The notes beneath the pieces are model-generated. The model was not told the DNA's origin, did not search any database, and worked only from the letters and a program-made list of their open reading frames with translations. A stretch of 43,388 nucleotides of DNA from Pelagibacterales bacterium MED-G40 (GTDB taxonomy: Bacteria; Pseudomonadota; Alphaproteobacteria; Pelagibacterales; Pelagibacteraceae): assembly GCA_002457515.1 (NCBI GenBank), contig NTJN01000006.1:1-43388 (forward strand), in the 5' to 3' direction. Every line of letters starts with the position of its first letter. Positions within the stretch are counted from its first letter, which is position 1. The translations under genes and the position numbers were made by a program. Shown in pieces: positions 20,268 to 24,829 of this stretch.

Positions 20268-21275
20268 TTATGAGAATGCCTCAACCCATGTTCCTTTAGT
20301 TGAAGCTTTAGAATATTCTGTTGCTCTACCTTCAAAAAAGTTCATATGCTCCACAGCGTTAAGCATAGTATCTAACCATGTTAATGGGTTTTTCTTAACA
20401 TCGTAAATTGGCTCTAATCCTAATTGAACTAGACGTCTGTTCCCTATAAATCTGATATAATCTTTTACTTCTTGAGCTGTTAGGCCTTTCATTGGACCCA
20501 TTTCGAAGGCTAAATCAATAAACGAGTCCTCATGTTGAACGATTGTTCTGCAAGCTTCGTAAAGCTCCTTTTTTAATTTAGGTGTCCAAATTTCAGGATT
20601 TTCTTTTATAAACTCCTTAAATATTCTTATCATTGAATTACAATGTAAAGTTTCATCTCTTACAGACCAAGTTACTATTTGACCCATGCCTTTAAGTTTA
20701 TTGTGTCTTGGAAAATTTAATAGAATAGCAAAGCTAGCGAATAATTGTAATCCTTCTGTGAAAGCACTAAAGACTGCTACAGTTTTTGCTATATCTTCCT
20801 TGGAATTAACATTAAAACCTTGCATGTAATCGTATTTATCTTTCATTTCTTTGTATTTCATGAAAGCAGAATACTCAGACTCAGGCATACCTATTGTATC
20901 TAATAAATGTGAGTAAGCCGCTACGTGAACGGTTTCCATAGATGCAAAAGCAGTCATCATCATTAAAACTTCAGTTGGTTTAAACACAGTCGTATAATGT
21001 CTTAAATAGCAATTATTAACTTCAACATCTGCTTGCGTGAAGAATCTGAAAATTTGTGTGACTAAGTTTTTTTCAGGTTCAGATAAATTTTTTTGCCAGT
21101 CTCTAACGTCATCTCCTAGCGGTACTTCTTCCGGCAGCCAATGAATTCTTTGTTGAGTTAACCACGCATCATAACACCACGGATATCTAAAGGGCTTGTA
21201 AACTGGATTTTCTACTAGTAAGCCCATTTTTTTTGGCTCTTCTTTTTTACTATTATCTTTTTTTACTACTGACAT
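20268..21275 (-). CDS. nrdB: Class I ribonucleotide reductase small (radical) subunit
   Basis: The R2 subunit that houses the di-iron/tyrosyl radical cofactor. Metal-site segments are FFTQADVEVN, SMETVHVAAYSHL (Glu, His and the radical Tyr in ExxHxxxY), FTEGLQLFASF and RDETLHCNSM. A start at ATG 21275 gives 335 residues. It is favoured over the GTG at 21284 because AGGAG at 21288-21284 is 8 bases from the ATG and overlaps that GTG. It overlaps the end of nrdA by 10 bases. The C-terminus TKGTWVEAF should dock on NrdA. Confidence 0.95.
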   Translation of the reverse strand: MSVVKKDNSKKEEPKKMGLLVENPVYKPFRYPWCYDAWLTQQRIHWLPEEVPLGDDVRDWQKNLSEPEKNLVTQIFRFFTQADVEVNNCYLRHYTTVFKPTEVLMMMTAFASMETVHVAAYSHLLDTIGMPESEYSAFMKYKEMKDKYDYMQGFNVNSKEDIAKTVAVFSAFTEGLQLFASFAILLNFPRHNKLKGMGQIVTWSVRDETLHCNSMIRIFKEFIKENPEIWTPKLKKELYEACRTIVQHEDSFIDLAFEMGPMKGLTAQEVKDYIRFIGNRRLVQLGLEPIYDVKKNPLTWLDTMLNAVEHMNFFEGRATEYSKASTKGTWVEAFS

Positions 21276-23215
21276 GATAGACACTCCTCATATTTGTTTT
21301 CTTCATTAGTTGATTCTTTATCTGTTTTATAAACATTTTTTGTCACATCTGTTGAAGAACCGGTATTAACATTTTCAGCTCTTTGAATAGATTTTGATCT
21401 ACAGTAATAAAGGCTTTTCAGTCCTTTTTTCCAAGCTTGAAAGTGAATATTATGAAGGTCTCGTTTGTGAATATCTGCAGGAATAAAAACATTAACAGAT
21501 TGAGCTTGAGATATATGTGGTGTTCTGTCTGCGCCTAACTCTACTATCCATCTTTGATCTATTTCAAAGGCGGTTTTAAAAGTTTCCTTTTCTTCAATAG
21601 TTAAAAAATCTAAATGAGAAACAGATCCTTGATTAGTTGTAATGCTAGACCAAATTTCATCGTTATTTTTTCCATAATTTTCTAAAACTTCAGTTAAATA
21701 TTTATTTCTAACATTATAAGATCCTGATAGAGTTTTGTGAGTATAGCTGTTACCAGAAATTGGTTCTATCCCTGGGGATGTCCCTCCACATATAATTGAA
21801 ATGGATGCTGTGGGTGCGATTGCAGTTTTGTTCGAAAATCTTTCCTTTACTCCGTATTCTTCTGCATCTGGACATGCTCCTCTTTCCTCAGCAAGAGTTA
21901 CTGAAGCTGCGTCAACTTTTGTTTGAATATCTTTAAAAACTTTTTTATTCCAAACCTTGCTCATAACAGATCCAAAAGGAATTTTTTTCTTTTGAAAATA
22001 AGAGTGTAAACCCATAACTCCAAGTCCAACACTTCGTTCTCTCATGGCCGAATATTTCGCATTTTCGAATGAGTCTGGAGCTTTATTTATAAAATCTGAC
22101 ATGATATTATCTAAGAACCTCATTACATCTTCAACAAATTTTTCTTCGTCTTTCCATTCATCATATTTTTCTAAATTAAGAGAAGAAAGACAACAAACCG
22201 CTGTTCTCTCTTTTCCGTCGTTATCTAATCCTGTCGGTAAAGTAATCTCGCTACATAGGTTGGAAGTTTTAACTCGAAGACCAGCTAATTTGTGATGTTG
22301 AGGTATTTGTCTGTTAACTGTATCAATATAAATAATATATGGTTCACCAGTCTCTACTCTCGCTGTCAAAAGTCTTATCCATAAGTTCCTTGCTGAAATA
22401 TTTGATTGCACTGAACCATCTTTAGGACTTCTAAGTGCCCATTGTGAATCTGTCTCTACAGCTCTCATAAATGCATCCGAAACTAAAACTCCATGATGTA
22501 GGTTCAATGACCTTCTGTTAACATCTCCACCTGTTGGTCTTCTCATTTCAATAAACTCTTCTATTTCTGGATGATCAATTGGTAAATAACAAGCTGCAGA
22601 GCCTCTTCTCAATGAACCTTGGCTTATCGCCAATGTTAAAGAGTCCATCACTTTAATAAATGGAATTATTCCTGAAGTTTTTCCAACTTTTCCAATTTTC
22701 TCTCCTATTGATCTTAAATTACCCCAATAACTTCCTATGCCACCGCCTCTAGCTGCCAACCAAACATTCTCACTCCATAAATCTAGTATGCCTTCTAAAC
22801 TGTCCCCTGCTTCATTTAAGAAACATGAGATTGGCAAACCTCTCTCGGTTCCACCATTTGATAAAACTGGAGTTGCTGGCATGAACCATAAATTACTAAT
22901 GTAATTATAAAGTCTTTGAGCATGTAAATTATTATCTGCGTATGTACTTGCAACTCTTGCAAACAGATCTTGAAAAGACTCATTGTGACCTAGGTATCTA
23001 TCAGTCAATGTAGCTTTACCAAAATCAGTAAGATTTGAATCTCTAGATCGATCAATTTTAATTGTTATACCTTTTTCATTTTGAAAAAGTTCTGTCTCTC
23101 CTGAAAGAGAAAAGAGATCTGTTTTTTTTGGACCGTTATCCTTAAACTTAGATACGGCGTTAGAACCTATGCTGCCCACAGCTTTTTTTATTGCCAAAGA
23201 TACATTTTTATTCAT
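21266..23215 (-). CDS. nrdA: Class I ribonucleotide reductase large (catalytic) subunit
   Basis: A 649-residue catalytic subunit reducing ribonucleoside diphosphates. Active-site features are the redox cysteine in LPISCFLNEAGDS, NLCSEITLP with the thiyl-radical cysteine, the second redox cysteine in AVCCLSSLNL, and the C-terminal CLSC that passes electrons from thioredoxin or glutaredoxin. PTASISIICGGTSPGIEP matches the PTASxS loop. The first 60 residues do not resemble an ATP cone (no VxKRDG motif), so dATP overall-activity inhibition by that domain is not expected. It is preceded by tandem NrdR-like boxes. Confidence 0.95.
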   Translation of the reverse strand: MNKNVSLAIKKAVGSIGSNAVSKFKDNGPKKTDLFSLSGETELFQNEKGITIKIDRSRDSNLTDFGKATLTDRYLGHNESFQDLFARVASTYADNNLHAQRLYNYISNLWFMPATPVLSNGGTERGLPISCFLNEAGDSLEGILDLWSENVWLAARGGGIGSYWGNLRSIGEKIGKVGKTSGIIPFIKVMDSLTLAISQGSLRRGSAACYLPIDHPEIEEFIEMRRPTGGDVNRRSLNLHHGVLVSDAFMRAVETDSQWALRSPKDGSVQSNISARNLWIRLLTARVETGEPYIIYIDTVNRQIPQHHKLAGLRVKTSNLCSEITLPTGLDNDGKERTAVCCLSSLNLEKYDEWKDEEKFVEDVMRFLDNIMSDFINKAPDSFENAKYSAMRERSVGLGVMGLHSYFQKKKIPFGSVMSKVWNKKVFKDIQTKVDAASVTLAEERGACPDAEEYGVKERFSNKTAIAPTASISIICGGTSPGIEPISGNSYTHKTLSGSYNVRNKYLTEVLENYGKNNDEIWSSITTNQGSVSHLDFLTIEEKETFKTAFEIDQRWIVELGADRTPHISQAQSVNVFIPADIHKRDLHNIHFQAWKKGLKSLYYCRSKSIQRAENVNTGSSTDVTKNVYKTDKESTNEENKYEECLSCQ

Positions 23216-23250: not shown

Positions 23251-23266
23251 CAACTATATGTTGTGT
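23251..23266. promoter_or_regulatory. NrdR-like box 1 (proximal)
   Basis: The 16-mer caaCTATATGTTGtgt matches the NrdR box consensus acaCwAtATaTwGtGt at 13 of 16 positions as I align it. It overlaps the proposed nrdA -10 (TATAGT, minus strand 23258-23253). The centre at 23258.5 is 31 bp from the second box, the usual pairing for NrdR operators. Confidence 0.7.
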
Positions 23267-23280
23267 TACATTAGTGTTAA
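23253..23280 (-). promoter_or_regulatory. Probable sigma70-type promoter of nrdAB
   Basis: On the minus strand TTAACA (23280-23275, 5/6) and TATAGT (23258-23253, 5/6) are separated by 16 bases. They lie about 38 bases upstream of the nrdA ATG. The -10 is inside NrdR-like box 1 and the -35 borders box 2, so repressor binding would block RNA polymerase. Confidence 0.55.
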
Positions 23281-23281
23281 T

Positions 23282-23297
23282 ATACTACATAATACGT
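23282..23297. promoter_or_regulatory. NrdR-like box 2 (distal)
   Basis: The 16-mer atactacataatacgt agrees with the NrdR consensus at about 11 of 16 positions. It is weaker than box 1, but its centre (23289.5) is 31 bp from box 1, close to three helical turns, which is the typical spacing of paired NrdR sites. Confidence 0.5.
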
Positions 23298-23386
23298 TAG
23301 TTCAATAGAACATTATACGAACATTTGTTTTTTTTTTCAAGTAGAAAGTTTTGTTAATAAAGAAGGTCATATAAAAGAGAATATTA

Positions 23387-24829
23387 ATGCTGATAAATCC
23401 AAATGGTTTTAGAGAGTACGATGCGAGATGGCTATATGAGAAAGAGATAGACCTTCTCGGAATTGAAGATCTTGGTAAAGGTCTTGGCACACAAATTATT
23501 CAACACACTAAAAAAAGTAATCCGAGGGTAATCGTTGGGCACGATTACAGATCTTATAGTGAAAAAATTAAATCTGCATTAAAAAAGGGATTAATTTCTA
23601 CAGGTTGTTTTATAGAAGATATAGGACTTTCTTTATCTCCAACAGTATATTTTGCTCAATTTAATTTAAATGCAGATGCTGTAGCTATGGTAACAGCAAG
23701 TCATAATGAAAATGGATGGACGGGAGTAAAGATGGGTATAAAAAGAGGTTTAACTCATGCTCCTGAAGAAATGTCCGAACTAAAAGAAATAACACTAAAT
23801 AAAAAATTTATTGAAGGAAAAGGATCTAATAAAAATATAGATAATTTTAAACAAGTCTATATTCAAGATTTAATTAAAAAAAACAAAATTAAAAAAAAAA
23901 TAAAAGCAGTAGTAGCTTGTGGAAATGGTACTGCCGGTATCTTTGCCCCTGAAATATTAAAAGGTGCAGGTTGTGAAGTTATTGAATTAGATTGTAAACT
24001 GGATTGGTCTTTTCCAAAGTACAATCCAAATCCTGAAGATTTAAAGATGCTTCATGCAATAGCTAAAGCTGTAAAAGATAATAACGCTGATATAGGATTT
24101 GGTTTTGATGGAGATGGTGATAGATGCGGAGTAATAGATGAAAAAGGAAACGAAATTTTTTCTGACAAAATTGGATTATTAATAGCAAGAAATCTAGCGC
24201 CCAAATATAAAAATTCTAAATTTGTTGTAGATGTAAAATCCACTGGTCTTTATTCAAAAGACAAAGTTTTGTCTGAAAATAAGTGTAAAACTATTTATTG
24301 GAAAACTGGTCATTCTCATATTAAACGAAAAGTAAATTTAGAAAAAGCTTTAGCAGGATTTGAAAAAAGTGGACACTTCTTTTTTAGTCAACCTCTTGGA
24401 TATGGTTATGACGATGGAATTAATTCTGCTATTCAAGTATGTCATTTGCTCAATAATCAAAATAAAAAGATGAGCGAGATTATGAATGACCTTCCTAAAA
24501 CTTTTCAAACCCCAACTATGGCTCCCTTTTGTAAAGATGATGAAAAATACAAAGTTGTTGCAGAAATGGTTAAAAAAGTAAAAAAACTTAAAGAAGAAAA
24601 CACAAAAATTGATAATCAATTAATAACTGAAATATTAACTGTTAATGGTGTACGATTTGTCTTAGAGGATGGTTCATGGGGCTTGATTAGAGCTTCTTCC
24701 AACAAACCTTCGCTTGTTGTAGTTACTGAAAGTCCATCGTCGGATGTTAGAAAGAAAAAAATATTTGATTTTATTGACAACCTTTTACAGAAAACTGGAA
24801 AAATTGGTGAATATGATCAGAAAATTTAA
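23387..24829 (+). CDS. Phosphomannomutase/phosphoglucomutase family protein
   Basis: A 480-residue alpha-D-phosphohexomutase. It has the phosphoserine loop VTASHNENGWTGVK (about residues 101-114), the metal-binding loop GFDGDGDRCGVID (near residue 238), a sugar-binding segment GFEKSGHFFF with the E-x-S-G-H pattern, and the C-terminal phosphate-binding loop LIRASSNKPSL. The protein fits AlgC/ManB-type enzymes that interconvert hexose 1- and 6-phosphates for surface sugars. Mannose versus glucose preference cannot be read. It is divergent from nrdA across a 171-base spacer filled largely by nrd regulatory sites. Confidence 0.9.
   Translation: MLINPNGFREYDARWLYEKEIDLLGIEDLGKGLGTQIIQHTKKSNPRVIVGHDYRSYSEKIKSALKKGLISTGCFIEDIGLSLSPTVYFAQFNLNADAVAMVTASHNENGWTGVKMGIKRGLTHAPEEMSELKEITLNKKFIEGKGSNKNIDNFKQVYIQDLIKKNKIKKKIKAVVACGNGTAGIFAPEILKGAGCEVIELDCKLDWSFPKYNPNPEDLKMLHAIAKAVKDNNADIGFGFDGDGDRCGVIDEKGNEIFSDKIGLLIARNLAPKYKNSKFVVDVKSTGLYSKDKVLSENKCKTIYWKTGHSHIKRKVNLEKALAGFEKSGHFFFSQPLGYGYDDGINSAIQVCHLLNNQNKKMSEIMNDLPKTFQTPTMAPFCKDDEKYKVVAEMVKKVKKLKEENTKIDNQLITEILTVNGVRFVLEDGSWGLIRASSNKPSLVVVTESPSSDVRKKKIFDFIDNLLQKTGKIGEYDQKI

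Follow-up and report, generated by a model that had tools for sequence, protein, structure and literature searches.

The region upstream of nrdAB in the window, by which we mean the whole 43,388-nucleotide stretch of Pelagibacterales bacterium MED-G40 analysed here, appears to form a compact operator for two repressors, LexA and NrdR, a reading to which we assign a probability of about 70%. Protein binding, the position of the start site, repression and the interplay of LexA with NrdR are predictions that we infer from the DNA sequence. A first-pass annotation of this DNA had described tandem NrdR operators laid over the nrdAB promoter. Control by NrdR, as proposed there, is supported, whereas the layout over the promoter is not well supported, the distal of the two sites is only a half-box, and a LexA-type box in the same region had been missed. 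SAR11 bacteria rank with the most abundant microorganisms of the sea, yet their genomes contain few regulators; the presence of two predicted operators on nrdAB in every sampled member suggests that tight regulation of dNTP supply pays even in a streamlined genome.

The nrdA gene (21266..23215, minus strand) encodes the 649-residue large subunit of a class I ribonucleotide reductase (NF006577, 1003.8 bits against a cut-off of 620) and overlaps by 19 nt with nrdB (20268..21284, minus strand), which encodes the small subunit (NF007186, 562.3 bits, cut-off 237). The intergenic region upstream of nrdA is 171 nt long and is shared with a divergent phosphomannomutase/phosphoglucomutase-family gene (23387..24829, plus strand) that contains Pfam PGM_PMM domains I–IV. 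At E ≤ 0.001 the Pfam domains of NrdA are the all-alpha and barrel domains only and NrdB contains PF00268 only; an ATP-cone was not found in either protein at this threshold. An nrdA with roughly 65% DNA identity to the window gene (21266–23215) is also present in Pelagibacter phage genomes.

The intergenic region contains two NrdR-like sites of 16 bp on the minus strand, a proximal box, ACACAACATATAGTTG (23251..23266), and a distal box, ACGTATTATGTAGTAT (23282..23297). Counted against the 16-mer NrdR consensus, ACACWATATATWGTGT, the proximal box matches at 13 positions and the distal box at 11. The box centres, at 23258.5 and 23289.5, are exactly 31 bp apart and leave a 15-bp spacer, in agreement with the original description. 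A single NrdR-like site is weak evidence: the window contains three sites with at most three mismatches compared to 1.35 expected, a number reached in 16 of 100 shuffles, and shuffling the 171-nt intergenic region produced a site of at least 13/16 in 111 of 5000 trials. The pair carries more weight. Dinucleotide shuffling of this region gave a summed score of at least 24 at a distance of 31–32 bp in only 4 of 5000 trials, and on the basis of these shuffles and of the conservation of the sites we rejected a chance origin of the pair. The conserved C and G of the NrdR box (positions 4 and 13) are both found in the proximal box. The distal box of the window keeps its right half, including the G, and has lost the C of its left half; because this C is required, we class the site as a variant NrdR operator.

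To assess conservation, we compared the sequence upstream of nrdA at 165 loci in 13 genera. The genus of the window contributes 110 of these regions and 12 further genera of its family contribute 55; 160 of the 165 are distinct over the last 120 nt. The genus sample comprises 110 of 120 genomes with an nrdA match, the other 10 having partial matches, and the other-genus sample comprises 55 of 123 genomes with a match, chosen to span genera; locus L181, a C-terminal piece, was also set aside. A single genus thus contributes two thirds of the regions, and only 5 of the 13 genera are represented by at least seven sequences. The proximal core C[AT]A.AT.TAG is kept in 165/165 regions, as are the C and G at positions 4 and 13 of this box. 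A distal GTRTA half-site lies 31 bp upstream of the proximal box in 163/165 regions and 32 bp upstream in 2/165. When averaged by genus, the mean consensus match is 12.4/16 for the proximal and 9.9/16 for the distal box and mostly 5–7 elsewhere. Both sites and their 31-bp spacing are therefore conserved across SAR11 in all 13 genera, with the right half of the distal box kept and its left half not conserved. A published regular expression for NrdR pairs (PMC12051234), applied at 31/32 bp, matched only 16/165 regions; for the prediction of NrdR sites, the distal half-box means that the usual expression misses most of the SAR11 family. A third NrdR box 3′ of the proximal one was considered and not adopted, as the mean match is 5.6 (at +31) and 7.0 (at +32) of 16, near background.

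Searched genome-wide, the joint pattern matches perfectly only at nrdA; since the pattern was drawn from these very sites, this uniqueness is not independent evidence. A genome-wide search for other NrdR targets gave no excess of loose matches to the NrdR pair (39 compared to 46 for the control). A lone near-perfect NrdR-box palindrome, ACACTATATATAGTAC, is located between HU-like and RseP-like genes at approximately 1035–1050 of locus L278 (G000:C4).

A distance of 31 bp separates the G-C pairs that NrdR contacts in its two boxes in the solved Streptomyces complex with DNA (PMC9110341), and a 15-bp spacer is reported to bind well in the four NrdRs tested (PMC12051234). The bacterial NrdR pairs counted by regular expression in the latter study have the same 15-bp spacer and lie near class I ribonucleotide reductase promoters, but the expression demands the C that the distal box here lacks. 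The absence of this NrdR-contacted C is evidence against our model. In one alternative, the distal element serves as a second −10 or binds another protein instead of being an NrdR box, and NrdR uses the proximal box differently; in another, the proximal ACAAC-N5-GTTGT, found in 149/165 regions, could be the site of a different repressor. We regard either possibility as unlikely. The distal left half does vary, and the affinity of E. coli NrdR falls 530- to 1000-fold when one box is mutated (PMC12051234), which makes the weak distal half-box a concern. However, the distance of 31 or 32 bp found in 165/165 regions is the spacing that NrdR prefers according to the same report. Moreover, boxes 1 and 2 of E. 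coli nrdAB likewise have a 15-bp spacer and lie downstream of the promoter, and the functional box 2 is likewise non-canonical (PMC12176259). As for a different proximal repressor, proximal boxes in which the ACAAC/GTTGT symmetry is lost, ACACTATATGTAGTGT being an example, are still NrdR boxes and keep the NrdR core, which is present in 165/165 regions. We thus retain the reading of the two sites as an NrdR pair.

The first-pass annotation had named the presence of nrdR elsewhere in the genome as a check on its proposal, and one such gene is indeed found in the genome of the window (G000:C5:56658-57101; L001 1480-1944), scoring 175.9 bits with TIGR00244 against a cut-off of 124.65. It is flanked by glyA-like and ribD-like genes, one on each side, as judged from their translations. 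Within the genus, an nrdR match was obtained in 114/151 genomes and in 12/12 of those that are at least 90% complete. The encoded protein consists of a Zn ribbon and an ATP-cone (PF03477, 77.1 bits) and aligns to the solved structures of E. coli NrdR. Its Zn ribbon retains D15, R17 and the RRRR stretch, which are named as DNA-contacting (PMC9110341). The ribbon contains CPFC and, in the one genome inspected, has C-T-C-GGG, a CxC with an insertion, in place of the second CxxC; the protein thus has only one of the two CxxC motifs of the NrdR family, yet it passes the TIGR00244 equivalog cut-off. With the nrdR gene present and both sites conserved in 13 genera, neither of the two findings named beforehand as counting against the proposal was obtained, and this streamlined genome would appear to keep NrdR control of ribonucleotide reductase, as had been proposed.

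The element that had been missed, a LexA/SOS-type box of the form GTTC-N7-GTTC, GTTCGTATAATGTTC (23308..23322, minus strand), lies approximately 10 bp upstream of the distal NrdR box and is the only exact copy in the window, where 0.56 would be expected by chance, so that its occurrence here has little weight when taken by itself. GTTCN7GTTC is described as the Caulobacter SOS box (PMC9578287, PMC12700426), and the Caulobacter LexA operator has the same exact half-sites and spacing; the putative target in the window is nrdAB, and the string "nrd" is absent from the main text of the Caulobacter papers PMC12700426, PMC4211646 and PMC13384398. The exact GTTC-N7-GTTC is found in 165/165 upstream regions from 13 genera. 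The half-sites never vary, the seven-base core between them takes 18 forms, and the distance from the LexA box to the distal box shifts by one base (36 in 117 regions, 37 in 46). Because the core varies while the half-sites stay constant, conservation of the −10 within the box does not by itself explain the GTTC repeat, and as its sole cause it was ruled out by the 18 cores.

The genome of the window, in an assembly that is 85% complete, encodes LexA (167.8 bits, cut-off 110.95) along with a umuD-like gene and recA; lexA was found in 12/12 near-complete members of the genus. The assembly contains six exact copies of GTTC-N7-GTTC, three of which are intergenic (before lexA, umuD and nrdA) and three inside genes read as dnaK, fmt and purF. 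Over the whole genome the motif is not enriched, as the reversed control gives 18 copies, and the evidence for a LexA box is therefore its position and conservation. In 9/9 loci read (eight and the own locus; L036, L038-L045), lexA is preceded by an exact GAAC-N7-GAAC at −37 and by a second box, at −16, that matches 7/8 positions. The recA box, GAACAAAATGTGTAC, also matches at 7/8 positions, in 13/13 loci read. GTAC-N7-GTTC occurs at seven places in the own genome, two of which were looked at.

It is improbable, in our view, that NrdR alone controls nrdAB and that the GTTC repeat owes its conservation to, for example, a role in the promoter or another regulator, with LexA inactive here. In favor of such an arrangement, LexA of Vibrio cholerae does not bind the LexA-like box found at nrdA in that organism, whose SOS regulon does not include nrdAB (PMC5963079). 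The box described here encloses the predicted −10 and would be partly conserved in any case, and its pattern is not enriched in the genome. These points are set against half-sites that are constant in 165/165 regions although the core and the −10 vary, and against the occurrence of the same motif before lexA and umuD in the own genome. Control by both LexA and NrdR remains the reading that we prefer. It differs from E. coli, in which nrdAB is not LexA-controlled (PMC5963079). A partial literature search, which did not take in the 2004 NAR comparison of LexA regulons and the 2008 Caulobacter study, yielded no report that we recognised as describing control of nrdAB by LexA in alphaproteobacteria, SAR11 included. 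The combination of LexA and NrdR with a distal half-box would thus be new, its NrdR part being ordinary in kind, and at the level of sequence it is well supported.

A promoter scan identified a predicted −10, TATAAT (23312..23317, minus strand), within the LexA-type box and a predicted −35, TTGAAA (23335..23340, minus strand), separated by 17 bp (score 11/12); the position of this −10 would place the transcription start at 23302..23306 (minus strand). The first-pass annotation had instead proposed a promoter composed of a −35, TTAACA (23275..23280, minus strand), and a −10, TATAGT (23253..23258, minus strand), separated by 16 bp (score 10/12); in this layout NrdR would compete directly with RNA polymerase at the −10. 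Both hexamers are present as described, TTAACA beside the distal box and TATAGT within the proximal box. The intergenic region contains three promoter-like sites, compared to 1.8 (sd 1.3) in shuffles, so that neither promoter call is significant by itself. Conservation gives a mixed picture. The TTAACA/TATAGT promoter reaches at least 9/12 in 84/110 members of the genus and in 7/55 regions from other genera, and in genera g5, g7, g9 and g10 it averages as high as or higher than the upstream one. Overall, however, it reaches this score in 91/165 regions, even with one extra −10 position allowed in the search, compared to 128/165 for the upstream promoter (110/110 in the genus and 18/55 in other genera). 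Moreover, TTAACA itself is in place in 76/165 regions, 71 of which belong to the genus and only 5/55 lie outside it. The proposal that the NrdR boxes are laid over this promoter is thus not well supported, and we consider it unlikely. Given the mixed scores across genera, the start site is itself a prediction. In other genera the −10 core within the LexA-type box becomes TATAAA, TATTAA or TATGTT, and some of these genera may use a shifted −10, for example TATGTT. Two DnaA-box-like elements are located upstream of the −35, at approximately 23340–23365: TTATTAACA and a block resembling TTTCCAC, which reads TTTCTAC in the window; they are visible in the genus of the window and not obvious in other genera.

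In the mechanism that we propose, a LexA dimer bound to GTTC-N7-GTTC around the −10 would shut out RNA polymerase, and RecA-driven cleavage of LexA after DNA damage would lift this block on nrdAB. An NrdR tetramer carrying ATP and dATP would occupy the distal and proximal boxes, approximately 10 bp downstream of the LexA site. If the upstream promoter is real, with a start near 23305, these boxes would be positioned at about +9 to +55, and NrdR bound to them, three helical turns (31 bp) apart, would kink the DNA and shut off transcription at high dATP levels. LexA would accordingly provide the damage input and NrdR the supply input. The NrdA of E. coli has an ATP-cone (PMC9531940), whereas none was found in the window NrdA; as NrdB also lacks a detectable ATP-cone, the usual inhibition by dATP at the level of the enzyme is probably absent, which may leave NrdR as the main sensor of dATP and the main feedback control on ribonucleotide reductase here.

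If LexA acts at nrdAB, damage, for example by sunlight or phage, would directly increase the synthesis of dNTPs, in contrast to E. coli and Vibrio cholerae. Published infection data can be read in this light. When phage HTVC027P, which has no nrd genes, infects Pelagibacter HTCC1062, recA, lexA, umuD and umuC go up, and nrdA and nrdB rise 3.12- to 8.87-fold and 2.53- to 5.83-fold, respectively; another phage, HTVC022P, carries its own nrdAB (PMC12753301). LexA at nrdAB would explain why host nrdAB and SOS genes rise in infection; in the available part of that report the authors named no regulator, and the words promoter, upstream and NrdR are absent from its main text. Release of NrdR on its own, brought about by consumption of dATP, could also account for the induction of nrdAB. 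A further point against the model comes from iron stress, to which Pelagibacter responds with increases in lexA, recA and mucA (PMC2864753), but the main text of that study does not mention nrd. We are evenly divided on the wider proposal that nrdAB is a direct SOS gene throughout the SAR11 family, with a joint LexA/NrdR operator and with NrdR as the sole dATP brake on an enzyme without an ATP-cone; if it is true, lytic phages without nrd genes would profit from this operator by triggering the SOS response.

Outside the family, we analyzed nrdA upstream regions from other alphaproteobacteria, covering 60 of 74 full-length matches at the level of the class. NrdR pairs are found in 29/60 of these regions, compared to a mean of 1.5 and a maximum of 5 in shuffles. 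An exact LexA box, on either strand, is found in 12/60 (mean of 1.1 and maximum of 3 in shuffles) and absent from the other 48. Six of the LexA boxes are in the orientation of nrdA; in five cases an NrdR pair comes after such a box, 27 bp away in three regions, 36 bp away in one and 61 bp away in one. With a LexA box and an NrdR pair in 5/60 regions, the joint operator is neither unique to the family nor general. In up to 700 nt upstream of the match at viral nrdA loci, for which the 80 best of 395 were taken, neither an exact LexA box (0/80) nor an NrdR pair (0/80) was found. Finally, in the sister family f2 of the same order, the 23 places listed match NrdA over only approximately 107 residues with 39% identity, inside open reading frames of about 1200 residues, and these probably represent another ribonucleotide reductase class, class II by size.
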